From Rugalucina vietnamica (Eukaryota > Mollusca > Bivalvia > Lucinida > Lucinidae), in NCBI GenBank assembly GCA_964017185.1, contig OZ024870.1:58940812-59004811 (forward strand): a stretch of DNA of 64,000 bases. Direction: 5' to 3'. Of the stretch, positions 1 through 46,200 are shown piece after piece. Numbering within the stretch: position 1 is the stretch's first letter; each line of letters begins with the position of its first letter. The notes beneath the pieces were generated by a model. The model was not told the origin of the DNA, ran no database searches, and saw only the letters and a list, made by a program, of their open reading frames with translations. The position numbers and the translations under genes are program-made.

Positions 1-283
1 AAGGTCGTGGCAGAAAAAGTTATTACGACCAGGATGATGAAGATATGCAAATGAGGAACGAGTTTCGCAAGCCGAGGGACAGTTTGTTGAACGTTGTGGC
101 AGAATTTTACGCATCATGTCAACCAAGATTGCGGGAGTTGAGAAAGATGTTGTGCGATCACTCCTTCAGGCCTCCAGAGTTGCTAGATCACAAATCTCAT
201 AATAGATTGGCTGAGATAGCTCATACACTGCTGAAGCTGGCTCCGTATGATCCTGAGACAATGGCGTGTGCTGGCCTACAGAG
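1..283 (+). CDS. unc80: unc80 exon 1 of window (5' end cut)
   Basis: The frame is open from base 3. It starts with an acidic stretch (YYDQDDED), then PRDSLLNVVAEFYASCQ and the block LLDHKSHNRLAEIAHTLLK...APYDPETMACAGLQR that I recall as strongly conserved in UNC80. The exon ends AG|GTAACT with two bases of a split Arg codon. Its last 66 bp and the donor are the founder of the 74-bp minisatellite that follows. Reading past the donor meets TAA at once. Confidence 0.9.
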
Positions 284-3200
284 GTAACTATAGCTCATAC
301 ATTGCTGAAGCTGGCTCCGTATGATCTGGAGACAATGGCGTGTGCTGGACTACAGAGCTAACTATAGCTCATACATTGCTGAAGCTGGCTCCCTATGATC
401 TGGAGACAATGGCGTGTGCTGGCCTAGAGAGGTAACTATAGCTCATACATTGCTGAAGCTGGCTCCCTATGATCTGGAGACAATGGCGTGTGCTGGCCTA
501 CAGAGGTAACTATAGCTCATACATTGCTGAAGCTGGCTCCCTATGATCTGGAGACAATGGCGTGTGCTGGCCTACAGAGGTAACTATAGCTCATAGATTG
601 CTGAAGCTGGCTCCCTATGATCTGGAGACAATGGCGTGTGCTGGCCTACAGAGGTAACTATAGCTCATACATTGCTGAAGCTGGCTCCCTATGATCTGGA
701 GACAATGGTGTGTGCTGGCCTACAGAGGTAACTATAGCTCATACATTGCTGAAGCTGGCTCCCTATGATCTGGAGACAATGGCGTGTGCTGGCCTACAGA
801 GGTAACTATAGCTCATACATTGCTGAAGCTGGCTTCCTATGATCTGGAGACAATGGCGTGTGCTGGCCTACAGAGGTAACTATAGCTCATACATTGCTGA
901 AGCTGGCTCCGTATGATCCTGAGACAATGGCGTGTGCTGGCCTACAGAGGTAACTATAGCTCATACATTGCTGAAGCTGGCTCCGTATGATCTTGAGACA
1001 ATGGCGTGTGCTGGACTACAGAGGTAACTATAGCTCATACATTGCTGAAGCTGGCTCCCTATGATCCTGAGACAATGGCGTGTGCTGGACTACAGAGCTA
1101 ACTATAGCTCATACATTGCTGAAGCTGGCTCCCTATGATCTGGAGACAATGGCGTGTGCTGGCCTACAGAGGTAACTATAGCTCATACATTGCTGAAGCT
1201 GGCTCCCTATGATCTGGAGACAATGGCGTATGCTGGCCTACAGAGGTAACTATAGCTCATACATTGCTGAAGCTGGCTCCCTATGATCTGGAGACAATGG
1301 CGTGTGCTGGCCTACAGAGGTAACTATAGCTCATACATTGCTGAAGCTGGCTCCCTATGATCTGGAGACAATGGCGTGTGCTGGCTGACAGAGGTAACTA
1401 TAGCTCATACATTGCTGAAGCTGGCTCCCTATGATCTGGAGACAATGGCGTGTGCTGGACTACAGAGCTAACTATAGCTCATACATTGCTGAAGCTGGCT
1501 CCCTATGATCTGGAGACAAAGGCGTGTGCTGGCTGACAGAGGTAACTATAGCTCATACATTGCTGAAGCTGGCTCCCTATGATCCTGAGACAATGGCGTG
1601 TGCTGGCCTACAGAGGTAACTATAGCTCATACATTGCTGAAGCTGGCTCCGTATGATCCTGAGACAATGACGTGTGCTGGACTACAGAGGTAACTATAGC
1701 TCATACATTGCTGAAGCTGGCTCTGTATGATCCTGAGAAATGGCGTGTGCTGGACTACAGAGGTAACTATAGCTCATACATGGCTGAAGCTGGCTCCATA
1801 TGATCTGGAGACAATGGCATGTGCTGGCCTACAGAGGTAACTATAGCTCATACATTGCTGAAGCTGGCTCCCTATGATCCTGAGACAATGTTGTGTGCTG
1901 GACTACAGAGGTAACTATAGCTCATACATTGCTGAAGCTGGCTCCCTATGATCTGGAGACAATGGCATGTGCTGGCCTACAGAGGTAACTATAGCTCATA
2001 CATTGCTGAAGCTGGCTCCGTATGATCCTGAAACTATGGCGTGTGCTGGACTACAGAGGTATGTCGGCTGTTTCATCAGGAAATCTGGTGGGGTTTGACA
2101 GGTTACGGTTTGAATGAAGTTTTCAATTTAAACAATTTTCTTCTGGACGAAAGGCAACAAAAAGATGGCTTTTTAAAGAGAAATCTGAAAAAAGGCATGA
2201 AGAAAGAACAACAACAATGAACCAAACTTTTCTGTGCGCCTAAAATTGAAAAAAAAAAAAAAGTTTCTTGCGTGCCTAAGGAAGTTTTAGTGTTTGCCTC
2301 CAATGCAATTCTTTTTGCGTTACCTCGTGTTTGCTTGATGCAAATACACATATTTAATTAGTTTATGGTTATAAATTAAAGCAGTTCTGAGCAGATCATT
2401 CACTAGATTGATTAACTGCATTAGTATTCATGTCGTGGTATAGTGGTTAAGCTCACTTGTAAATCAGGGGTGGTGGGTTTGATCCTGTGCTTCTCCAGTC
2501 TTTTGTATGAGACTTTAATTCAAGATCCTATCTCCATATAGCCTTACTTGTTGTGTGGGACATCAAGCACGATATTAGCCAGTTTTTCAATGAGCTTTTC
2601 TGTTTCTGAAATTTCTAAATTACAAGTCTATATTCTATTGGCATTATTTTGTTTCTCATCAGGCTTCTTGTAATTCTAGAACAGAGGTGCAAAATTTAAT
2701 AAAGGACATTTTCTTTATACAGGTATATGACAGATATCCTGCCGATCACTGATTGGTCCCAGGAGGCAGTGCGGCCAGCTCTGAACCTGATCCTCAGACG
2801 TCTGGACAGACTGTTCAGTAAAATATCCAAGAGTTCGTCCCTAAAGGTAGGTTAATTATTTTGCTCATAATCTTCTCAAGCCAAAGTACTTACTCAAGTT
2901 TTATTTGAGCCATGATGTGAGAAAACTGGTCTTCGGGATATCAAACGAGGTCAAGCACAAACCGGTCTGTGCAGTCACTGAAAATAGTAAGAAGCTTGAA
3001 ATGTTGGATATAGGAAGGAGGAATTGTACCTCCTCCCACTAGTGAAAGCAGCTGAAAGACTCGAGCATTTTTAATTTGTTGGAAAAGTGGTATATTTAAG
3101 AAGATTTTTTTATCATTTTTTGGCTCATTTCCTGATGATCAGGGACATATCACATGAATGAAAAATCTTAAAAAGGCTACTTATTTATGCTTTGTATAAC

Positions 3201-6200: not shown

Positions 6201-9200
6201 CAAGACATATATTTTCAGAATCAATGCCTTACTGATTTACGTTAAAAATAAACATCGTTTGTGGTTGTAAAAAAATCCAAATAACAATATCACCAACCTT
6301 TGTTTTTGTCGTTTCTTGGCGTAGCAACTACTGCGACAGGTCCCACATGACATTGTGTCATGAGAACGAAAATATGTTAACACATGTTCGTGGTAGTTCC
6401 TAGGTTTCCCACTCGTGAGTACAATCATGTGTAATCCTACTACAATGTACAGTGTATTTCCAAATATAGGTACTCACCGCTATTAAAACCATTGGAAGGA
6501 AAATTTTATTATTAGATTCTTTTGTTTTTATTTTGGAGAGTTGAAGATGTATATTTTATATAGCTTTCTTTTGGCCTGTTCTTTACTTTGTGTACATTAG
6601 ATTTAGTTGCATAATTTTTTATATGCTTTGCATTGTTTTCTTTAGCTATTTGTAGATAAATAGATATTGTCAATTTACAACCAGTTGCTTGCCAATTATG
6701 TTAACAACTATTTTGTAAAGTTTACTCAAATTGAAATAAAAGTAATTGCATTAACATGCTATGATAATCGCATTTGAGATTTGTATTATTTACTGTGTAG
6801 AGAGAATGTTTTTATAGAGGGGTCTAAATCAATTAAGTCACTTGAATTATTTTATGACCAAATTTTATATTTTTATGCCCCCAACTTTGAAAAAGTTGGA
6901 AGGGCATATTGGTTTGGGCTTGTCTGTCTGTCTGTCTGTGTGTGCGTGTGTAACACCTTGTTTTTGAATGGTGAATGTTAGGGATTTGAAATTTCATGTG
7001 CGTATTCCTCATGAAAAAATAGTTGACCCGTATTTTTTTTCTTGTCCGAGTTATGCCCCTTTTCTGAGTTATTTCCCTTTGAAAACAAAATTTGAAAATC
7101 TTGTGTGCAAGATATCTCCAAAAGTATTTGAGCTAGAGCCTTCATATTTGGTATACTGGTTGGGGATGATGAGTAGATTACCTGATCAACTTTTGAGAAC
7201 TTTCCGTCAAATTTTGACAAAAATACGGAATTTTGAAATTTTGATTGATTTTTCCACTTTTCGGTGAAATTTGAAACTTTTGAAAGGTGAATGCTAGGGT
7301 TTTGAAATTTCATATACACATTCCTCATGATAAAATAGTTGACCCGTATTTTTTTGTATGGCCAAGTTATGCCCCTTTTCTGAGTTATGTCCCTTTGAAA
7401 ACAAAATTTGAAAATATTGTGTGCAAGATATCTCAAAAAGTATTTGAGCTAGAGCCTTCATATTTAGTACACTTGTTGGGGCTGAGAAGTAGATGACCTG
7501 ATCAACTTTTGTGAACTTTCCGTCAAATTTTGACAAAAATACGGAATTTTGAAATTTTGATTGATTTTTCCACTTTTCGGTGAAATTTGAAACTTTTTAA
7601 AGGTGAATGCTAGGGTTTTGAAATTTCATATACACATTCCTCATGATAAAATAGTTGACCCGTATTTTTTTGTATGGCCAAGTTATGCCCCTTTTCTGAG
7701 TAATGTCCCTTTGAAAACAAAATTTGAAAATATTGTGTGCAAGATATCTCAAAAAGTATTTGAGCTAGAGCCTTCATATTTGGCACACTTGTTGGGGCTG
7801 AGAAGTAGATGACCTGATTATTTTTTGAGAACTTTTTGTCAAATTTTTACAAAAATACGGAATTTTGAAATTTTGATTGATTTTTCCACTTTTTGGTAAA
7901 ATTTGAAACGTTTGAATGGTGAATGCTAGGGTTTTGAAATTTCATATACACATTCCTCATGATAAAATAGTTGACCCGTATTTTTTGTATGGCCAAGTTA
8001 TGCCCCTTTTTTGAGTTATGTCCCTTTGAAAACAAAATTTGGAAATCTTGTGTGCAAGATATCTCAAAAAGTATTTAAGCTAGAGCCTTCATATTTAATA
8101 CACTTGTTGGGGCTGAGGAGTAGATGACCTGATTAACTTTTGAGAATTTTCCGTCAAATTTTTACAAAAATACAGAATTTTGAAATTTTGATTGATTTTT
8201 CCACTTATCAGTGAAATTTGAAACTTTTGAACAGTGAATGTTAGGGTTTTGAAATTTCATATACAAATTCCTCATGAAAAAATAGTTGACAGGCATTTTT
8301 TTTCATGTTCAAGGTATGCATTTTTTGGAGTTATGGCCCTTTTAAAATAAAATTTGAAAATCTTGTGTGCAAGATATCTGAAAAAAGTATTTAAGTTAGA
8401 GCCTTCATATTTGGTATACTGGTTGGGGCTGAGAAGAAGATCACCTGATTACTTTTTGAGGACTTTCCATCAAATTTTGACAAAATAACTCAATTTTGAA
8501 TTTTTTACTCCATTTCTAACTTGTTTGCAAAGGCTTACATTCTGTTTCTGGATGGAGGCAAAAAAGGCAACCGAACAGCTTTTTTAGGAAATTAAATTTC
8601 ACTTAATTCGAATGAAATAATGAATCATACAAGCTGCCAGTTTAGGGACAAGCATACAGTTGGGGGCATAGTGTTTTACAAACACGCATTTCTAGTTTAA
8701 TCCTTGACAAGGCACCAGATAAAAAATGTACCACAGACTAATTGATAAAATAATATCAAGTTTCTAAGAACAGCTTTTAGTCTACTCTGAGTATACGGTC
8801 AAACCTCTATAAAAGCGCCACCTTTGGGAGTGAGCTAAGCTGGCTGTTATACACAGGTGGCTGTCTTATCAAGGTTCAGTCAGAGCAGTTATCATATAGA
8901 AAATATTCTTACTGTCACAAGAAAAATCCTTTCTAAGGAAGGACTACCTGTATGTGCTTCATAAGTTGACATCATTTCATGCTTCGTTACACAAAAATAT
9001 ATACAAAGCCTCATGGGTATTAACTTAATTTATTTTTTCTGCTAATTAACTGTTTTAAATACAATAATGGATAATAATTGTCCAATTAACAGCTTGTAAA
9101 TGGAAAATTTGACTTTAGGCAAGTATGATGTGGCTGTCTTATAGAGAGTTATAAGCATTTTGGGATTAATTTTACTGGCTGCTGGTTGTCTTGTGGAGGT

Positions 9201-12200
9201 GGCTGTATTATTATACCCCGCCACTTAAAAAAAGTGCGGGGTATTATGTTATACCCTCCAAAAAAAATTTGCGGCGTTCGAGTGTCCGTCCGTCCATCTG
9301 TCCGTCCGTCCGTCTGTCTGTCCGTCTATCCGTCTGTCTGTCCGTCCGTCAGCGTTTCGTTTCCGGGCTCTATCTTGAGCATTTATTGACCGATTTTCTT
9401 CAAACTTTGTATAGGAGTTCATATAAGGAAGGAGTGGTTTGGGATTGAAGATGGGTAAATTTCGTCAAATATGTACAGAGTTATGGCCCTTGATTTACGT
9501 TAAAATTTCGTTTCCGGGCTCTATCTTGAGCATTTATTGACCGATTTTCTTCAAACTTTGTATAGGAGTTCATACCAAGAAGGAGTGGTCTGGGATTGAA
9601 GATGGGTAAATTTCGTCAAATAAGTACAGAGTTATGGCCCTTGATTTACGTTAAAATTTTGTTTCCGGGCTCTATCTTGAGCATTTATTGACCGATTTTC
9701 TTCAAACTTTGTATAGGAGTTTATACCATGAAGGAGTGGTTTGGGATTGAAGATGGGTAAATTTCGTCAAATATGTACAGAGTTATGGCCCTTGATTTAC
9801 GTTAAAATTTTGTTTCTGAGCTCTATCTTGAGCATTTATTGACCGATTTTCATCAAACTTTGTATAGGTGTTCATACCAAGAAGGAGTGGTCTGGGATTG
9901 AAGATGGGTAAATTTCGTCAAATAAGTACAGAGTTATGGCCCTTGATTTACGTTAAAATTTCATTTCCGGGCTCTATCTTGAGCATTTATTGACCGATTT
10001 TCTTCAAACTTTGTATAGGAGTTCATACTATAAAGGAGTGGTTTGGGATTGAAGATGGGTAAATTTCGTCAAATATGTACAGAGTTATGGCCCTTGATTT
10101 ACGTTAAAATTTTGTAAAATCTTGGCTCTATCTTGAGCATTTATTGACCGATTTTCATCAAACTTTGTATAGGAGTTCATACCAAGAAGGAGTGGTCTGG
10201 GATTGAAGATGGGTAAATTTCGTCAAATAAGTACAGAGTTATGGCCCTTGATTTTCGTTAAAATTTCGTTTCCGGGCTCTATCTTGAGCATTTATTGATA
10301 GATTTTCTTCAAACTTTGTATAGGAGTTCAGACCAGGAAGGAGTGGTCTTGGATTGAAGATGGGTAAATTTCGTCAAATATGTACAGAGTTATGGCCCTT
10401 ATCTAGGAGTTAATATCAGGAAGGAGTGATTTGGGATTGAAGATGGGTAAATTTTGTCAAATAAGTACAGAGTTATGGCCCTTGATTTACGTTAAAATCT
10501 TGTTTCCGGACTCTATGTTGAGCATTTATTGACCGATTTTCTTCAAACTTTGTATAGGAGTTCATATAAGGAAGGAGTGGTTTGGGATTGAAAATGAATA
10601 AATTTCGTTAAATAAGTACAGAGTTATGGCCCATGATTTACATTAAAATTTCGTTTTCTGCCTCTGTTTTGTGCATTTATCAACCAATTTTCTTTAAATT
10701 TTGTATAAAAGTTCAAATCAGGAAGTAGTGGTTTGGGATTGAAGATGGGTAAATTTTATCAATGTATACAGAGTTATGGTCCTTCATTTATGACAAAATT
10801 TTGTTCTGCTCTTTATCTTGAGAATTTATTGACAAACCTTTTTGCTAAATTAAATTTGCGTGGCGGGGTATCATGCATGCCTGCAGCGCTTTTATGCAGA
10901 GATAAAATATAGTGAAAATGATTGGGAATGTTTCAGACTGGCTCTCTTATGCAGGTGGAGCTCTTATAAAGGTGGCTGATTCAGCAGGTTCAACTGTAGT
11001 ATCATGTAAATGTGTATACCAGTAGTATACTTTTCAGATTGTTAGAGATTTAAGATGTATAGACTTTACAAATTTATCAACAATGTTATGGAACCTTCTT
11101 TAGTTCTGCTCTTAGCTTTTTTTAAAGTGATGAACAGTAATGTATTAAATTTCCAGACTTACAAAAACTTAGGCCAGCAAGTGAAATATGCAAATATTCA
11201 ATGATTAAACTGGTATTAGACGGATTTTATATGCAGCTGTCATAGACATTCGTTTGAATGAAGTCAAAGGCATTTTTGGTACAATTTTAAGGGTGATAAC
11301 AGCAGCATTTTAGGAGTCAGCTTGAAAATAGCTTGTGTGTGCAGGGCAAGAGATTTATCTTCATCTCAAGAAGTTTTGGTTTTGTTTTGGTTTTAAAAGT
11401 TTTAAATAATTTACCATATTTCTTAAGTTCAAGAAACATGTCTTTAATATACAATCGTGGTACATCTCGTTAGTTAAATGGAGAAACCGTTTATTCCAGA
11501 TAATGAGGTTTATGCCATTGAAAGAGGGAATTCTTGAATTGAATGCCATAGATAGATCAGGGCCCAGTTGTTCAAAACTAACGACGTCGTTAGTTAACGT
11601 TTCATTAAAATTTCAAACATGAATATTACAAATACACTGTTATTTTTTGTTGAAAAAATGTGAGAATCCTTTGCACTGCAAAGGATTCTCACATTTTTTC
11701 AACAAAAAATAACAGTGTATTTGTTACTTTAGCTGATATTTGCTTAACAAATTTATGTCTTAACGATATCGTTAAGCTAACGATGCTTTGAACAACTGGG
11801 TCCAGATGTTTAGTCACATATGAGTAAGAATTTTCTGATAATTGTTCATTGGAATATTGTCAAACTATAGGGAGCTACCTCCAAATTAAAGAGACACTAC
11901 ATCTATGCCCAGACCAGAAACTTCGTCATTCTAATAAATATTCATTTCCTACGTGTTTGTTGTTGTATAGGAGCAGTTTTCCCTAGAACAGATTTGTGGA
12001 GGTGTAGCTGTATTTCCTACCAGTGATAGGTCAATCAATGTCCTCGTAAACTTCATTCTACCACTGTGTATCAGAGTAGGCTGTGGGCGGAGGGGTAAGT
12101 GTATATTTTGTGATAAAGAACATAACCACTGAAAAACATTTTGTGATAAAGAAAAACATTTTGTGATAAAGAAAAACATTTTGTGATAAAGAACATAACC

Positions 12201-15200: not shown

Positions 15201-18200
15201 TCCTTCTGGGAAGTAACAACAAGGGCAGGTTGTTTCAGGAAAACATGTCCGTGAAATGTATACCCCCTCATACCCAACTTGTATACAGTAAAACTGGGGT
15301 GTATAGTGGTAAACCTATTTTTCTCATTTTTGCTCTTAAACATAGATTGTGGTTACTCGTTAGAACTGCCTCGGCGAGGCGATTCTAATGTGTACCCACA
15401 ATCAATGTTTTGAGCAAAAAATGGGAAAATATTGAAAATTTTCATCCCAATTTTTGCAACTTAGGAAAAATCTTTACATAACATGGATATGTTTTCGTAA
15501 TGTCTTGCTTTGATTATAAGTTGATTAACCCATTCCTGATATCTGTTCTCAGATGATGCGAGTAAACTGTGACACCGCCCAGGAGTACTACATACAGCAG
15601 ACTATCAAGGATAAACTGCAGGGCTACAGTTTTACCCACCCTAAGTGTATTGGATCAGTCCTGGTGGAATTGGCACTGGAACTAAAACAGATTAAGGAAG
15701 AGTTCATTTCTGCTGGAGGTAAAGTTAGAAAAAGTATGCCGTTGATGGTCAAATGCACCTGTTGCCTATTTATCAGGAAAGTTGGAAAAAATAATAGCTA
15801 GTCAAAAGAACTGTCATAGATGCTAATTTATCTAGAACCATGATGTACTGGATTGTTTGTGAAATCATCAGGATAACATATCCATGCAATGTATATCCCC
15901 TTGAACCCCACTTCTATAAAGCAGAACTGGGCTATGCAGGGATATATATATTTTTAGCTCACCTGAGCCGAAGGCTCACAAGGTGAGCTTATAGTACAGT
16001 AGTCGAGCCAGCGTCCATCCGTCCGTTCACATTTTCAAACTCAAATATCTCGAAGACAACAAGGCTGATCGTGATCAAATTTTATCTAAAGCATCATTGA
16101 GGAGGGTGAAAGGTTGCATTAGGTTTTGGGCCAGGTCGGATTGGAACTCTGGTTTCCATGGCAACAGATAGCTCCCGTAGACTTACAATGGGAAAAACAT
16201 AAAAAAATCTTCTCCGAAACCACAAGTCCCAGACCTTTCATATTTTGTGTGTAGCAATGTATAGTGGTCCTCTTTATAAATCCTGCCAACCGTGCCCCTG
16301 GGGTCCATACAGGCCCCGCCCCGGGGGCGTGATGGGGCAAAACATAAAAAAAATCTTCTTCTCCGAAACCACATGGCCCAGAGCTTTCATATTTTGTATG
16401 TAGCAATGTGTAGTGGTCCTGTTTATAAATCCTGTCAATCATGCCCCTGGGGTCAAAAATGGCCCCGCCCCGTGGGTCATTAGCTCCCATAGACTTACAA
16501 TGGGAAAAACATAAAAACATCTTCTTCTCCGAAACCACAAGGCCCAGAGCTTTCATTATACCCCCCGCCAAAACGAAGTTTTAAGGGGGGTATACTGTTT
16601 TCACGTTGTCCGTCCGTCCGTGCGTCCGTGTGTGCATCCGTCCGTCCGTCCGTCCGTCCGTAACGTTTTGTTTCTTTAATATCTTGAAGACCCATTGATG
16701 GAATTTCATGAAACTTTGCAGGCATCTGTATATCTATGGGGCAGATATGTACATGCAAAAATTAAGGGCTAGGGGCCAGTCCCTTTTGAATTACTTCCCT
16801 TTATAGTTCTTGATGGCTTTTGTATACAGTGATGATAGTGCATTTACGGGCCGATCAACTCCTACAACAGTTTTTGTTGGAACTTTTTGATATTATGCCT
16901 AAATGATGTAGGCCCATTGGACATTTGCATGAAGAAATGTTATCGCGAAAAAATAATTTTTGACAAAATGACAGCAATGAGAACTTAGGCAATTTTCTTA
17001 CTTTTTTATACAGGTAAGGGCTTTCACGGGCCGATCAACTCCTACCACAGTTTTTGATGGAACAATTTGATATCATGCCTACATGATGTACACCCATTGG
17101 ACATTTGCATGAAGAAATGTTATTGCAAAAAAATAATTTTTGACAAAATGACAGCTATGAGAACTTAGGCAATTTTCTTACTTTTTTTTTACAGGTAAGG
17201 GCTTTCACGGGCCAATCAACTCCTACCACAGTTTTTGATGGAACAATTTGATATCATGCCTACATGATGTACACCCACTGGACATTTGCATGAAGAAATT
17301 TTATTGTGAAAAAATAATTTTTGCTAAAATTACAGCTATGAGAACTTAGGCAATTTTCTTACTTTTTTTTTTACAGGTAAGGGCTTTCATGGGCCGATCA
17401 ACTCCTACCACAGTTTTTGATGGAACACTTTGATATCATGCCTACATGATGTACTTCCATTGGACATTTGCATGAAGAATTGTTATTGTGAAAAAATAAT
17501 TTTTGATAAAATGACAGCTATGAGAACTTATATATTTTTTTTTTTTACTGTTAAAGGCTTTCTTTGATGGAACAAATTGATATCATGCTTTCATGATGTA
17601 CACCCATCCATTGGACATTTGCATGAAGAAATTTTATTGCCAAAATGATTTTTGTGGTAAACAGTTATCCTGCGGGGGGTATTTAATAAGCATTGCTTAT
17701 TGTCTCTTTTTTCATTCATATTCTGTGAGTAGCAATGTATGGGGGGGTGGGTGGTCATGGGTAAAACAAAAAAATCTTCTTCTCCGAAACCACAAGGCTC
17801 AGAGCTTTCATATTTTGTTTGTAGCAATATATAGTGGTCCTCTTTATAAATCCGGCCAACTGTGCCCCTGGGGTCCATACGGGCCCCGCCCTGGGGGCGT
17901 CATGGGAAAAACTTTAAAAAATCTTCTTCTCTGAAACCATAAGGCCCAGAGCTTTCATATTTTGTGTGTAGCAATGTATAATGGTCCTCTTTATAAATCC
18001 TGCCTACTGTGCCCCTGGGGTCCATACGGGCCCCGCCCTAGGGGTCATTAGGAAAAACATAAAAAAATCTTCTTCTCCAAAACCACAAGGCCCAAAGCTT
18101 TCATATTTGTATGTAGCAATGTGTAGTGGTCCTCTATATAAATCCTGCCAATCATGCCCCTGGGGTCAAAAATGGCCCCGCTCCCGTAGACTTACAATGG

Positions 18201-21200
18201 GAAAAACATAAAAAAGTCTTCTTCTCCGAAACCACAAGGCCCAGAGCTTTCATATTTTGTCAGTAGCAATGTGTAGTGGTCCTCTTTATAAATCCTGCCA
18301 ACCGTGCCCCTGGGGTCCATACAGGCCCCGCCCCGGGGGCGTGATGGGGCAAAACATAAAAAAAAAATCTTCTTCTCCGAAACCACATGGCCCAGAGCAT
18401 TCATATTTTGTATGTAGCAATGTGTAGTGTTCCTCTTTATAAATCCTGCCAACCGTGCCCCTGGGGTCCATACAGGCCCCGCCCCGGGGGCGTCATGGGA
18501 AAAACTTTAAAAAATCTTCTTCTCCGAAACCACAAGGCCCAAAGCTTTCATATTTTGTTTTTAGCAATGTATAGTGGTCCTCTTTATAAATCCTGCCAAC
18601 CGTGCCCCTGGGGTACATACGGGCCCCGCCCCGGGGGCGTCATAAAAAACAAAAAACCGAAACCATATGGCCCAGAGGTTTCATATGTTGTGTTGATCAA
18701 TGTATAATCCTCTCCTTTATAAATGCTGCCAACGGTGCCCCTGGGGTCCATACAGGCCACGCCCCAGGCATGTCATTATCTACCATAGACTTATAATGGA
18801 AATATATGAAAAAATCTTTTCTGCAACAGCATGACACAAAGCTTGTATATTTGATATACAACATTGTCATTTGGAGCTCTACATAAATCCTGCCAATTTT
18901 GCCCCTGGGGTCAAATATGGCCCCACCCCGGGGGTCATTATAGGACCCTGACCTTGTTAGACGATTTTTTCATGTGAACCAAAATGGCAGAAAAGAGGAT
19001 ACACAATCCAGACAAGAGCTCTTCTGCTGATGTAAGTAGGGTTTCAAGGTCACATGACCAAGATGGCCACCATACCCATATATGGTAAAAACCCCAATTA
19101 CTTTGTCCAATGACTGTACTTGTTGACTCTCAGGTGAGCGATCGTTGCCCCTGGGCTACTTGTTCTTATTTTTGCTCCAAACCCACAATCTATGTTTTGA
19201 GCCCACAATCTATGTTTTGAGCAAAAATAAGAAAAATATCAAAGATTTTCTACTGAAATTTTTCATTTTTTACATACAAAAATAATCTCTGTATATTGCA
19301 TGGACAAGTTTGCATATTGTATAGAAATGTTTCACAGCGCAAGATAAAGAAAATACTTTCGCGATCCTTGTTTGTTTGTCCTAGATGATTCGTATAGATA
19401 CTTAGACAAGTTGGCTTCTTTAAAAAGAAACCAATGAAAAGGTCAGCAGCCGCTTGTTATAAGAGATTCCTTTTGCTCTAGATTTCAGTATTGTTGATTC
19501 TCTGGTTTGCAATTAATTTCGATTCTCATACGTTTCAGTTTCTTTTCCTATACATGAATGTCGTTTCTTGTTATGAACGCTTGACCAGTGTGTGTATCTG
19601 TCACTCAAGGCATTGACCAAAATTTCTGATGTTATGGAACCAAAGCCAATACTAAAGGGAACACGATTACAATCAATATGTCGATGTGTAGAAAACCATT
19701 TTGCAGTGCAGTCAATTTGTGGCAGAGTTCTGAATTTTGACCTGCAGCCACACTACCAGAAACAGACCCATGGGACCGATGTGATGGACTAAAAGTCAGT
19801 CATATAGAGTTCCTATAGTTTCTGTACCCCTCGTCAGGGTATCTACGATCTAAACCTAGATGCGCTATGATAAGCAGTCACCACGACCGAGACTGCTTGC
19901 TAGATTTTACCGCTATTTGACGGGGAGTGTCAAAAATGGATAAATTTAATTGATTGCGGTTAATTGTCTAGTCAGTATAGACGGGTTCACTAGTTTTTAT
20001 TAAGCACTTTATGTGACAAAACGCGTAACTGAGAGAGAGCAGTCGATCATGGGTAGAATTTTCTTCATATTCAAAGTAAACACTGTGGAAAAGGTCCTGA
20101 GGGACCTTTTCCAATAACCTGCAGACAGTATTGCACTATATTGTGGTGAACTGGGTAAATTTGGTTGATGCCATATTTTCTCCTTGTTTATTTGCAGGAG
20201 AATATAGATCAAGGTCAGCTACTATGGCAACCGAGAGGTCAGACTACTCACAGACACACTTCACTGAAGTAAGAAACAAGGCCAGTGTAACAGACATCAC
20301 GGCAGAGATTATAGGTCAGCCAAAACCAACACTGGCAACCATTGGGAAAAGAGCTAGCAGAGGTGAGAATCATTATCTTGATTTTCCAATGTCTGTGACT
20401 TTCCAAATATTTCCTTCTAGTAATTGAACGTGACCTAGACGGAATATTTCCATTGGTGTTCCGTTAGACCTCTCCACACAGATGGAAATGGGATATATTC
20501 CTTGGTTGAAAATTAAAAAGTAGCAAAACTGCAAAGAAACGAAAAACTGTGTTATGTTAGATCATTTCCAGCACATGTGACGTAAATTATATATATATTC
20601 TAGCTGTAAAAGTATGCATAATCATAAAATACTTATTTATTTCATAGAATGTATCAACAATATCTATAAATAGATCAGGGGAGACTACTGTAGAAAATTG
20701 TTTGTTGTTTACAAATTCAATTAAAATCTGCGAGAAATGCATGTGATTATCAGAAGATTTATGCTACTGCTGCAAATACATAACAAAAATTCTAGTAAAT
20801 ATCATCAAATAAAGAAGCTAAAGGCTACTTATGAAATCCATAATCAGTTAGATCATAGTTTGAATGCAACTAATGCTAAGCTGCCACGGAAGTGGAACGA
20901 GGTCACGAAGTGTATCGGAGTGCAGGTTAGCCAGCTGATCTAAACATGACCATACCTGTTGACTGGGACATTAAACAGCAGATCAAGCAAACTTATTATG
21001 GGACTTCTACTCAACACTGGGATGTGATGACATGTGAAATGTGCTGGAAGTATATAATCACTCAGTTAAACAAACTCTTTTCCTGGGTGGGCCCAGACCT
21101 TAGTGGTTAATCTGTACTCAGGTGGTTGGTCGGACTGTAAGCTGTTTGCCTAGAGATACAAGCAGTGTATCTATTTTTCACAGCCCCAATTGGCTCTAAA

Positions 21201-34400: not shown

Positions 34401-37400
34401 CAAGGTGAGCTTATAGTATAGTAGTCGAGCCAGCGTCCGTGCATTCGTCCGTCCGTCCGTGCGTCCGTCCACATTTTCAAACTTGAATATCTCTAAGACA
34501 ACAAGGCCAAACGTGACCAAATTTTATCTAAAGCATCATTGAGGAGGGGGAAAGGTTGTATTAGGTTTTGGGTCAGGTCGGATCAGAACTCTGGTTTCCA
34601 TGGCAACAGATAGCTCCCATAGACTTACAATGGAAAAACATATAAAAATCTTCTTCTCTGAAACCACAAGGCCAAGACCTCTCATATTTTGTGTGTAGCA
34701 ATGTCTAGAGGTCCTCTTCATAAATCCTGCCAACTGTGCCCCTGGGGTCCATACGGGCCCTGCCCTGGGGGAGTCTTTGGGAAAATATAAAAAAATCTTC
34801 TTCTCTGAAACCACAAGGCCCAGAGCTTTCATATTTTGTGTGTAGCAGTGTTTAGTGGTCCTCTTTATAAATCCTGCCAACCATGGCCCTGGGGTCAAAA
34901 ATGACCCCGCCATGGGGGTCATTAGCTCCCATAGACTTACAATGGGAAAAACATAAAAATTCTTCTTCTCCGAAACCAAAAAGCCCAGAGCTTTCATATT
35001 TTGTGTGTAGCAATGTCTAGTGGTCCTCTTCATAAATCCTCCCAACCGTGCCCCTGGGGTCCATACAGGCGCCGCCCCGGGGGCGTCATGGGGAAAATAT
35101 AAAAAAATCTTCTTCTCCGAAAGCACAAGGCCCAGAGCTTTCATATTTTGTTTGTAGCAGAATATAGTGGTCTTCTTTATAAATCCTGCCAGCCGTGCCC
35201 CTGGGGTCCATTCGGACCCCTCCCCGGGGGAGTCATGGGTAAAACATAAAAAAATCTTCTCCGAAACCACAAGGCCCAGAGCTTTCATATTTTGTTTGTA
35301 GCAATATATAGTGTTCCTCTTTATAAATCCTGCCAACCGTGCCCCTGGGGTCCATACGGGTCCCGCCTGGGGGGGGGGGGGGGGGGTGAGGGTCATGGGA
35401 AAATCTTCTTCTCCGAAACCACAAGGCCTAGAGCTTTCATATTTTGTGTGTAGCAATGTATAATGGTCCTCTTTATAAATCCTGCCTACCGTGCCCCTGG
35501 GGTCCATACGGGCCCCGCCCCGGGGGTGTCATGGGAAAAACATAAAAAAATCTTCTTCTCCAAAACCACAAGTCCCAAAGCTTTCATATTTTGTATGTAG
35601 CAATGTTTAGTGGTCCTCTATATAAATCCTGCCAATCATGCCCCTGGGGTCAAAAATGGCCGCGCCCCGGGGGTCAACAGCTCCCATAGACAATGGGAAA
35701 AACATAAAAAAATCTTCTTCTCCAAAACCACAAGGCGCAGAGCTTTCATATTTTGTCAGTAGCAATGTATAGTGGCCCTCTTTATAAATCCTGCCAACCG
35801 TGCCCCTGGGGTCCATACAGGCCCCGCCCCGGGGGCGTCATGGGAAAAACTTTAAAAAATCTTCTTCTCCGAAACCACAAGGCCCAAAGCTTTCATATTT
35901 TGTTTTTAGCAATGTATAGTGGTCCTCTTTATAAATCCTGCCAACTGTGCTCCTGGGGTCCATACGTGCCCCGCCCCGGGGGCGTCATGGGAAAAACGAA
36001 AAAAAAATCTTCGTCTCCGAAACCATATGGCCCAGAGCTTTCATATGTTGTGTGGACCAATGTATGATACTCTCCTTTATAAATGCTGCCAACGGTGCCC
36101 CTGGGGTCCATACAGGCCACACCCTAGGCATGTCATTATCTACCATAGACTTATAATGGAAATACATGAAAAAATCTTCTCTGCAACAGCATGACACAAA
36201 GCTTGTATATTTGATATACAACATTGTCATGTGGAGCTCTACATAAATCCTGCCAATCTTGCCCCTGGGGTCAAATATGGCCCCACCACGGGGGTCATTA
36301 TAGGACCCTGACCTTGTTAGATGATTTTTTCAAGTGAACCAAATTGGCAGAAAAGAGGATACACAATCCAGACAAGAGCTCTTCTGCTGATTAAGTAGGG
36401 TTTCAAGGTCACATGACCAAGATGGCCACCATACCCATATATGGTAAAAACCCCAATTACTTTGTCCAGTGACTGTACTTGTTGACTCTCAGGTGAGCGA
36501 TCGTTGCCCCTGGGCTACTTGTTTAAAGACTGCAAATTGTCACCAGAATCAAAATAATGTTAACTAATCGTTACAACACTTGTTGTCAGAACATTTTGGA
36601 GCCTAGTGGTTTTGTAACTTTTGTGTATGATTTAACTTAATTACACAAAGTTTGCATTTGTGCTTTCATATTAAATTTGCATGAAATTGTAGTTTTGTTT
36701 TTGTTGATAGTGTTAGACAAGTTTTTGAAATTTAAGATACAGATCTTGCTGTGCAGTATTCTGTCAATTGCTGCTTTTATTCATAGACGTTTATTTTTGT
36801 ATACTTTTAAAAACTTAGTCTACTCAGTGAACAAGTAGACTGCACAAATGGAAGTCTTTTAAGTTTATATTCTACTCTTAACAGAATTTATAATCAACAT
36901 TTATAGCTGGTCATTTCTGGGTTCAAACTAGAAATGGGTCACAATGAAGGCAATCCAATTGGCATCTACAACAGAATTTAATGGAAAACTTGCAATCATT
37001 TAGTTATCATCAAATACATGTTCATGTTTTATTTGCTTTACAGATTCTTGATCTCAAATATGTGCCATTTTCTGATGTTTTACAAATATTTTATGTCTAT
37101 TTTACACCAAATCCATTTTTTTTGTTTTATATATTTGTTTTAATGTTTCCAATAAAAGTTTTGAATGTTAGCATGCACATATACAGTTTGTAGTTTAGCA
37201 TATATATTACATATATTTACAATATGGCTCTTAATAAGTTTTTGCTTGGTTTTTAGCTCACCTGAGCCAAAGTCTCACAAGGTGAACTTATAGGATGATA
37301 CTGGAGCCGGCGTCAGTTAGTGCGTCAGTCCGTCCGTCTGTTAACACTTCTCTTTATAAATTCTGTCAATCAAGATCCATACAATCAGGGACCTGGGGTA

Positions 37401-43278: not shown

Positions 43279-46200
43279 GTGTGGGCATTTTCTCATCAAA
43301 CCCCGCCTTTATAGCTTTTATATAGCAAAACTGGGGTATGCAGGGGTATACCTATTTTTAGCTCACCTGAGCCGAAGGCTCACAGGTGAGCTTATAGTAT
43401 ACCCATGCTCCGGCGTCCGTCCGTCGTCCGTCGTCCACCATTTTCAAAGATCTTCTCCTCTGAAACCACTTGGCCAATCAAAGCCAAACTTCATGTGGAG
43501 CATCCTTAGGAAGGGGGAACGAAAGTTTATATAAATGGTCCAGGTCACATGACCAAGATGGCCGCCATGGCTATAAATAGCAAAAACCTTTAAAAATCTT
43601 CTTCTCCAGAACCAGTGGGCCGATTTCCACGAAACTTGGTATGTAGCATCGGGGACGCGGGCCCATCATAGTTTATATAAATCATGACCCTAGGATGACC
43701 TTGACCTATTTTATGGCAAGGTCAACTTAGGTCGCCAATGCATTTGAATGGGAAAAAATGGTAAAATGCTATTTAATGGGTAAAACTTACTGGGAATAGG
43801 CAAATGGACAGAAGATTAATGTTAATAGAAAATTTTAGCCCCTGGGGGGTTGTCTGCCCCTGCCCTGGGGCTATATATACATGTATATGACCATAATATT
43901 CAAACATCTTCTCCCGTGAAACCGCTAGGCCAATCAAAGCCAAACTTCATGTGGAGCATCCTTGGGAAGGGGGAAAGAAAGTTTATATAAATGGTCAAGG
44001 TCACATGATCAAGATGGTTGCCATGGCTATAAATAGAAAAAACCTTTAAAAATCTTCTTCTCCAGAACCAGAAGGCCAGTGATTTTGAAACTTGGTGTGA
44101 AGCATCAGTGACTGGAGCTCTACAAAGTTTATATAAATCATGACCCTGGGATGACCTTGACCTATTTTACGGCAAGGTCAACATAGGTCGCTCATGCATT
44201 TGAATGGGGAAAAGTGTTAAAATGTCATTTATAGGGAAAAACTTGCAGGAAATTGGCAAATGGACTTATGATTGATGATTCTGAAAAAATTTGGACCCCA
44301 GGGGTCTGTCTGCCCCCATCCCGGGGCAATATACATGTGTATGACCAAATTATTCAAACATCTTTTTCTCTGAAACCGCTTGGCCAATCAAAGCGAAACT
44401 TTATGTGGAGCATTCTTAGGAAGAGTGAATGAAAGTCTATATAAATGGTCAAGGTCACACGATCAAGATGGCCGCCATGGCTATAAATAGCAAAAACATT
44501 TAAAAATCTTCTCCAGAACCAGAAGGCCTATGATTTTGAAACTTGGCATGAAGCATCAGGCAATGGAGCTCTACAAAGTTTATATAAATCATGACCCTGG
44601 GATGACCTTGACCTTTTTTACAGCAAGGTCAACTTAGGCCGCCCATGCAATTGAATGGGAAAAAATAAGAAAATGTCAATTAATGGCAAAAACTTGCTAG
44701 GAATGAGAAAATGGACAGAATATTCATGTTTATGAAAATGTTTTTGGCCCAGAGGGTTGTCCTCTGCCCCTGCCCAGGGGCTTTATACATGTGTATGACC
44801 ATAATGTTCAAACATCTTCTTCTCTGAAACCGCTTGGCCAATCAAAGCCAAACTTTATGAGGAGAATTCTTAGGAAGAGTAAATGAAAGTTTGTCAAGTT
44901 GGTCAAGGTCACGTGACCAAGATGGCCGCCATGGCTATAAATAGCAAAAACCTTTAAAAATCTTCTTCTCCAGAACCAGAAGGCCTATGAGTTTGAAACT
45001 TGGCATGAAGCATCAAGCAATGGAGCTCTACAAAGTTTGTTTAAATCATGACCCTGAGATGACCTTGACCTTTTTTACGGCAAGGTCAACTTAGGTCGCT
45101 CATGCATTTGAATGGGGAAAAGTGTTAAAATGTCATTTATAGGGAAAAACTTGCAGGAAATGGGCAAATGGACTTATGATTGATGATTCTGAAAAAAATT
45201 GGACCCCAGGGGTCTGTCTGCCCCCATCCCGGGGCAATATACATGTGTATGACCAAATTATTCAAACATCTTTTTCTCTGAAACCGCTTGGCCAATCAAA
45301 GCGAAACTTTATGTGGAGCATTCTTAGGAAGAGTGAATGAAAGTCTATATAAATGGTCAAGGTCACATGATCAAGATGGCCGCCATGGCTATAAATAGCA
45401 AAAACCTTTAAAAATCTTCTTCTCCAGAACCAGAAGGCCTATGATTTTGAAACTTGGCATGAAGCATCAGGCAATGGAGCTCTACAAAGTTTATATAAAT
45501 CATGACCCTGGGATGACCTTGACCTTTTTTACAGCAAGGTCAACTTAGGCCGCCCATGCAATTGAATGGGAAAAAATAAGAAAATGTCAATTAATGGCAA
45601 AAACTTGCTAGGAATGAGAAAATGGACAGAATATTCATGTTTATGAAAATGTTTTTGGCCCAGAGGGTTGTCCTCTGCCCCTGCCCAGGGGCTTTATACA
45701 TGTGTATGACCATAATGTTCAAACATCTTCTTCTCTGAAACCGCTTGGCCAATCAAAGCCAAACTTTATGAGGAGAATTCTTAGGAAGAGTAAATGAAAG
45801 TTTGTCAAGTTGGTCAAGGTCACGTGACCAAGATGGCCGCCATGGCTATAAATAGCAAAAACCTTTAAAAATCTTCTTCTCCAGAACCAGAAGGCCTATG
45901 ATTTTGAAACTTGGCATGAAGCATCAAGCAATGGAGCTCTACAAAGTTTGTTTAAATCATGACCCTGAGATGACCTTGACCTTTTTTACGGCAAGGTCAA
46001 CATAGGTTGCCCATGCATTTGAATGGGGAAAATTGTTACAATGTCATTTGAAGGGCAAAACTTGCAATAAATTGGCAAATGGACTGATCATGAATCTTTA
46101 TGATTTAAAAAAGAAATTGACTCCAGACGTTGCTCTGACCCTGCCCTGGGGTTATATACATGTATATTACCATTCTAGTCAAACAAGTTTATTGGTATAT

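Follow-up and report, generated by a model that had tools for sequence, protein, structure and literature searches.

Tandem repeats that carry splice sites have been described in several settings. The minisatellite of the human gene IFI6 (6-16, G1P3) is built of 12-bp units. It gives multiple splice donors, as Turri, Cuin and Porter reportedly found in 1995. According to the introduction of PMC4526556, two downstream repeat units of IFI6 act as donors. A second setting is that of human segmental-duplication genes, in which internal tandem repeats at exon-intron boundaries were reported together with 27 intron modifications in the part of PMC2812944 considered here. A third is the gain of introns when an exon segment containing AGGT is tandemly duplicated, as outlined in parts of PMC4974935 and PMC2891723; the former also cites genes of fission yeast whose introns span several 24-bp repeats.

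We analysed a stretch of 64,000 nucleotides (hereafter the window) of the bivalve Rugalucina vietnamica, which is part of contig 2 (C2) of a 1.09-Gb assembly of 47 contigs, and identified in it an unc80 exon whose end is repeated 25 times. As in IFI6, this is an exon-end minisatellite whose repeats carry splice donors: each unit has a 5' splice site position that continues the exon end, with GT in 22 of the 25 copies. Its unit is longer (74 bp against 12 bp), and arrays are carried by several genes of the one genome, the acceptor side of exons included. The downstream donors of IFI6, as far as the cited introduction describes them, make isoforms, whereas each downstream donor of the unc80 array brings in a stop. 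With the segmental-duplication genes the locus shares tandem repeats that straddle splice sites and alter gene structure; however, the cases in the cited part of PMC2812944 are recent paralogs with a changed coding structure, while in the present genome the genes are conserved, their mRNA appears to be unchanged and the repeat would be intronic. The likeness to intron gain, as the cited parts of PMC4974935 and PMC2891723 present it, is a new working splice site that arises from tandem duplication. In intron gain both splice sites come from the duplicated segment, whereas the existing unc80 intron keeps its acceptor (at 2722, outside the array, where TRF found no repeat) and its donor, on our present reading, would have been replaced by one born at a duplication junction. 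A single array resembles the human cases; what is new is that such arrays recur in one genome, in several genes and on either side of exons. No description of splice-site turnover by duplication junctions at such a scale was found in the literature searched, and among the bivalve titles listed none dealt with splice-site arrays.

The unc80 exon and its 25-copy array

The features of the locus are listed below in window positions; all lie on the + strand.

1..283, + strand: unc80 exon, which starts 11 bases before the window (C2:58940801) and whose last 68 bases are copy 1; its upstream acceptor was read
216..2058, + strand: array of 25 copies of 68 bp of exon end plus GTAACT (TRF, decomposition and assembly search)
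284..289, + strand: first donor, GAG/GTAACT, the sole in-frame donor of the array, presumably born at a duplication junction
290..2058, + strand: 24 intronic copies, 21 with GT, the use of which would bring in TAA directly past the exon
2059..2064, + strand: GTATGT, the donor of copy 25, which runs on into the unique intron; probably the native donor (we infer the polarity)
2723..2846, + strand: next unc80 exon, with acceptor TTTATACAG/G, which continues the reading frame

The gene was identified with the joined translations of the array-bearing exon and the next two exons, which matched chain A of PDB entry 7wji (residues 2482-2635, E 1.8e-50) and the Pfam family UNC80_C (E 9e-84). The exon begins after TTAGCAG, 11 bases ahead of the window, and is 294 nt long, with an intron of 298 nt upstream and one of 2,439 nt downstream.

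TRF reported a period of 74, 25.0 copies and 95% matches at 216-2061. Decomposition from position 216 gave 25 units, of which 24 are 74 bp long and the 21st is 73 bp; the original prediction of a 25-copy array of a 74-bp exon-end unit stands except for the length of this one unit. The division of the unit into 66 bp of exon and GTAACTAT had to be corrected: decomposition gives 68 bp of exon end (ATAGCTCATAC...CTACAGAG; ATAG...CAGAG) followed by GTAACT, since ATAG is also exon sequence and shifts the exon/intron split by two from 66 + 8. At the exon-end position, 21 copies have GTAACT, three (copies 2, 12 and 17) have CTAACT, and copy 25, which runs on into the unique intron, has GTATGT. GT is present in 21 of the 24 intronic copies, in agreement with the earlier view that nearly all of them have an intact donor.

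A 20-base core of the unit had 24 matches in the window at up to three mismatches, compared with a mean of 0.01 in 100 shuffles. When the unit was searched against the 1.09-Gb assembly (E up to 0.001, very common words skipped), 25 matches were obtained, every one at the window locus, which argues against a mobile element or dispersed satellite, as these would have copies elsewhere in the genome. The structure also differs from that of tandem mutually exclusive exons: the units begin inside the exon, the six non-exon bases per unit leave, by inspection, too little space for an acceptor and its tract, and inclusion of a unit shuts the reading frame immediately, whereas an open frame is expected of mutually exclusive exons. 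A 24-base pattern of the array had no matches in viral contigs. Separately, tandem arrays outside exons were observed in the window at 6962-8505, 9355-10851, 17754-18765, 34632-36118 and 43443-46084, with periods of 316, 151, 147 and 454 bp; units similar to these recur over a 160-kb region.

Arrays in other exons and genes

A view of the array as peculiar to its exon was not supported, as further arrays were found in unc80, dynein and kinesin genes:

C2:58931163-58932306 (L010:6352-7495), upstream of the window: another donor array of unc80, with a 103-bp unit and 11 copies (TRF 11.1)
C17 (L045): dynein donor array with a 112-bp unit and 14 copies, 13 with GTAAGT and the last, at the unique intron, with GTAAGG
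C17 (L045 2384-2696), reverse strand: 84-bp acceptor repeat (units of 82-84 bp), about 4 copies, beyond the 14-copy donor array (TRF)
C4: dynein array with a 156-bp unit, five donors and a degenerate end
C17:29979300-29982200 (L047): dynein acceptor-side array with a 158-bp unit and 16 acceptors (tract, AG and exon start), from the DHC_N2 search (95 matches)
C10:15532900-15535200 (L048): kinesin donor array with a 107-bp unit (exon end plus donor), about 17 copies with 88% matches, from the kinesin search (133 matches)

A genome-wide Pfam search (39 matches) revealed repeated unc80 exon matches 9 kb upstream of the window. In this 103-bp array, which follows another unc80 exon, all 11 donors are CAG/GTAAGT; the first is in frame, and splicing from any of the 10 later ones would meet a stop 40 to 967 nt ahead of the junction. 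The same 11 bp (AAGTTTACAGT) are present inside the exon and at intron positions +3 to +13, a sign that two short direct repeats delimited the 103-bp duplication. In the intron after a third unc80 exon lies a single decayed copy of that exon's end and donor (81% over 127 bp). Among 32 unc80 exons (31 Pfam matches and one added by hand), strong nearby copies (E 1e-30 or less) were found for three, all of them downstream, and weak or flank matches alone for four more; with another cut and range, and with flanks counted, 5 of the 32 had a nearby copy.

The two dynein donor arrays were detected with the AAA_6 domain (109 matches), and their reading frames meet a stop 50 nt (112-bp array) and 15 nt (156-bp array) beyond the first donor. 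On the acceptor side, the frame of the 158-bp array closes after 168 nt from each of the first 15 acceptors, and only the last acceptor reaches the full exon. The kinesin array has 17 donor places by pattern search, 16 of them with GT, and a stop 26 nt past the first; it extends past the fetched stretch and is more diverged than the 74-bp unc80 array. The copies of the 84-bp acceptor repeat look like the start of the next dynein exon, and the domain continues in a Pfam match some 10 kb further on.

Close-spaced series were absent from the lists of myosin (91 matches) and the UNC80 middle (10 matches). An observation of a different kind was made at C3:16465077-16467095, where three myosin-head matches covering approximately the same profile range (~119-153) lie ~1 kb apart on one strand; these are possibly alternative exons. 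Overall, arrays of at least four copies numbered 6 in ~418 exon matches (21 + 10 + 91 + 91 + 80 + ~125), a rough figure tallied by eye with array copies and a few doublets left out, in which the search scores best candidates only, single matches need not be single exons, and unc80, the gene that prompted the search, accounts for two of the six arrays.

Tandem arrays are error-prone in assembly, and the array or its copy number could in principle be false. We consider this very improbable, because the copies differ by scattered variants and one deletion, the 1.85-kb array in a 47-contig assembly is short for long reads, if such were used, and similar arrays are carried by several loci.

Origin of the arrays

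In arrays with a readable end, the edge copy, next to the unique intron, carries its own distinct splice site. This site is GTATGT in the 74-bp unc80 array and GTAAGG in the dynein 112-bp array. In the 158-bp array, the first acceptor has its own tract and AG, as opposed to the 15 others (13 end in cccccatag and 2 are variants), and the first of the four 84-bp acceptor copies has a different tract. The dynein 156-bp array fits less cleanly, with GTATGT in copy 1, GTAGGT in copies 2-5 and GTGGGCAAT after the degenerate last copy. The rule covers neither the 103-bp array, in which the duplication point lies in a direct repeat, nor the far end of the kinesin array. The proposal that the last unc80 copy represents the ancestral boundary thus gains support from the distinct edge-copy sites of other readable arrays, and parsimony makes GTATGT the probable ancestral donor. 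Most simply, the native site would have remained with its own intron, and the exon-adjacent site would have been born at the junction.

We put at about three in four the probability that the array is a minisatellite that started from a tandem duplication across the splice site, with the exon-proximal donor in use and the rest mostly silent decoys. Its history, as we infer it, would have begun with a tandem duplication across the 5' splice site of the unc80 exon, joining, by way of three filler bases, a point just inside the intron (shared up to the GTA of GTATGT) to an exon position 68 bp further upstream. The junction would have created the new donor GTAACT beside a complete exon and stranded the native GTATGT at the far end as a decoy, and unequal exchange may have amplified the intronic copies. 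Arrays built on the same plan are carried by other exons of the genome. Every intronic copy carries a base that is absent from the exon copy (24 of 24 in the 74-bp array and 10 of 10 in the 103-bp unc80 array), and such a base, common to all of them, suggests that the intronic copies expanded among themselves. Higher-order repeats within the array were considered and discarded, as copy differences had merely weak dips at lags 9 to 11.

Copies 1 and 25 encode the same peptide: their 68 sites include four differences, every one of them synonymous, and only two of these are found in copy 25 alone. Under free drift of copy 25, the chance of all changes being synonymous would be ~0.005-0.009 (a product of computed fractions). 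Among the 23 copies between them, 16 have a P to L replacement at one codon, with both CCT bases changed, and further replacements occur in other intermediate copies; copies 10, 12 and 19 have synonymous changes only. These few sites hint at a longer period of constraint on copy 25 than the simple model would predict, or at the joining of two diverged alleles.

Local duplication is common around these genes. For 53 of the 91 myosin-head matches, a nearby copy of an exon part or of the 40-bp flanks was detected in 12 cases at E < 1e-3, and in 10 at E < 1e-8 within 1.5 kb; nine aligned myosin cases include both donor-side and acceptor-side copies. Random intronic windows, in which satellites, mobile elements and unrecognised exons may be present and were all kept, had a nearby copy in 35 of 150 cases at the myosin loci and 78 of 150 at the unc80 locus. 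Exon copies are therefore no commoner than general local duplication, and we counted this background in favor of a duplication origin. Around 85 donors, nearby copies were on the exon side only in 7 cases, on the intron side only in 8 and on both in 6; around 84 acceptors the corresponding numbers were 8, 3 and 2, three of the eight being donor arrays seen through short exons. These sites were picked automatically, some surely wrongly, and include the four donor arrays then known. The symmetric donor test and the intronic background gave no support to exon ends as hot spots of duplication, and a donor-only bias (4 of 4 arrays on the donor side) was dropped after the 16-copy acceptor array appeared. 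As a separate example, in C1:9300500-9310000 (L038), two acceptor-side copies of a 129-bp unit lie ahead of a myosin exon (9302379-9302579; 91% over 262 bp); this unit is a multiple of three and could splice in without a shift.

Breaks or template switches at the edge of the splice signal, as opposed to random local duplication, might instead seed exon-end arrays. In all five donor arrays, what is shared with the native intron stops no more than ~13 nt from the donor. For the 103-bp array the breakpoint can be placed anywhere from +2 to +13, the native flank of the 156-bp array matches imperfectly over ~10 nt, and the kinesin breakpoint was taken from ATGTCT at +8 to +13 matching the exon. We retain this regularity as a lead. 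However, it was noted post hoc, and Pfam-based discovery favors mostly coding units. The junctions are also of different types (microhomology, 1-3 nt of filler or ~31 nt of filler), and both the symmetry around the 85 donors and the presence of a 16-copy array on the acceptor side speak against a mechanism tied to the splice signal, which we regard as quite improbable.

Donor choice and its consequences

Joining the first donor (283/284) to 2723 keeps the reading frame. For all 24 later exon ends, including the three without GT, translation meets a TAA directly past the exon, 70 to 1771 nt upstream of the junction, which bears out the expectation that any donor except the first brings in a TAA. 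RNAs with such premature stops are, by the usual rule, substrates of nonsense-mediated decay.

Scored with a human matrix, the first donor (GAG/GTAACT) has 4.1 bits and the last (GAG/GTATGT) 4.9 bits. Pairing with the 5' end of U1 gives -6.6 kcal/mol for the first and -6.9 kcal/mol for the last. The last donor, which had been called the better one, is so by a slight difference in both measures. On the same matrix, 20 other unc80 donors picked by eye range from 0.3 to 8.8 bits, with G at position +5 in 18 of the 20 and C in none. Donors with C at +5 occur among the automatic picks (GAGGTAACT and AAGGTAACA in myosins, AAGGTAACC in unc80), suggesting that such donors are probably used elsewhere in the genome.

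Competition between donors has been analysed in human genes and minigenes in PMC9225289. In the parts of that study considered here, exon-defined minigenes with identical CAG/guaagu donors chose the upstream donor exclusively, intron-defined competition favored the downstream donor, and the switch to exon definition was placed at flanking introns of >200-250 nt; the stronger donor was dominant in 86% of human events, and larger exons were skipped when both donors were weakened. With a 294-nt exon between introns of 298 and 2,439 nt, exon definition, and with it the first donor, is indicated for unc80. Exon definition would thus probably select the exon-proximal donor and leave the array mostly silent. 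A slightly stronger last donor or a weak first donor could alter the outcome here, and the shorter intron (664 nt) that splicing from the last donor would leave also counts against the reading of silent decoys.

If the decoys are mostly silent, splicing from the first donor would keep the mRNA correct, the site nearest the exon's own acceptor being favored under exon definition, and occasional use of a decoy would yield a premature stop and decay of the mis-spliced RNA. An acceptor-side array would require the mirror choice, which likewise makes the shortest exon.

The array could instead be regulatory, with 21 decoys competing with the productive donor, nonsense-mediated decay tuning UNC80 dosage and copy number serving as the dial. 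The retention of GT in 21 of 24 intronic copies, the early stop that every decoy would give, the modest strength of the productive donor (4.1 bits by the human matrix) and the presence of two arrays in unc80 are consistent with such a role. Yet the variability of donor columns is not significantly below that of the others (1 of 18 versus 27 of 159 variable; Fisher p 0.31), and selection on decoy donors was dropped on this result; we found no clear signs of selection in the sequences of the array. Moreover, similar arrays are present in dynein and kinesin genes, and the exclusive use of the upstream donor among identical donors, as given for exon-defined minigenes in the cited part of PMC9225289, also argues against competition. 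A regulatory array is thus unlikely.

More generally, and tentatively, as we think it possible but doubtful, duplication junctions at splice edges may repeatedly make minisatellites in this genome, with native sites replaced and ~1% of conserved exons facing 5 to 25 near-identical competitors. The arrays offer natural tests of spliceosomal choice between identical sites: the frame is kept only by the first site on the donor side and only by the last on the acceptor side. The unc80 case asks whether exon definition alone can resolve some 22 near-equal donors in a native gene. Splice sites would be replaceable by tandem duplication with the protein unchanged, and exon ends may be misplaced by gene annotation in repeat-rich invertebrate genomes.
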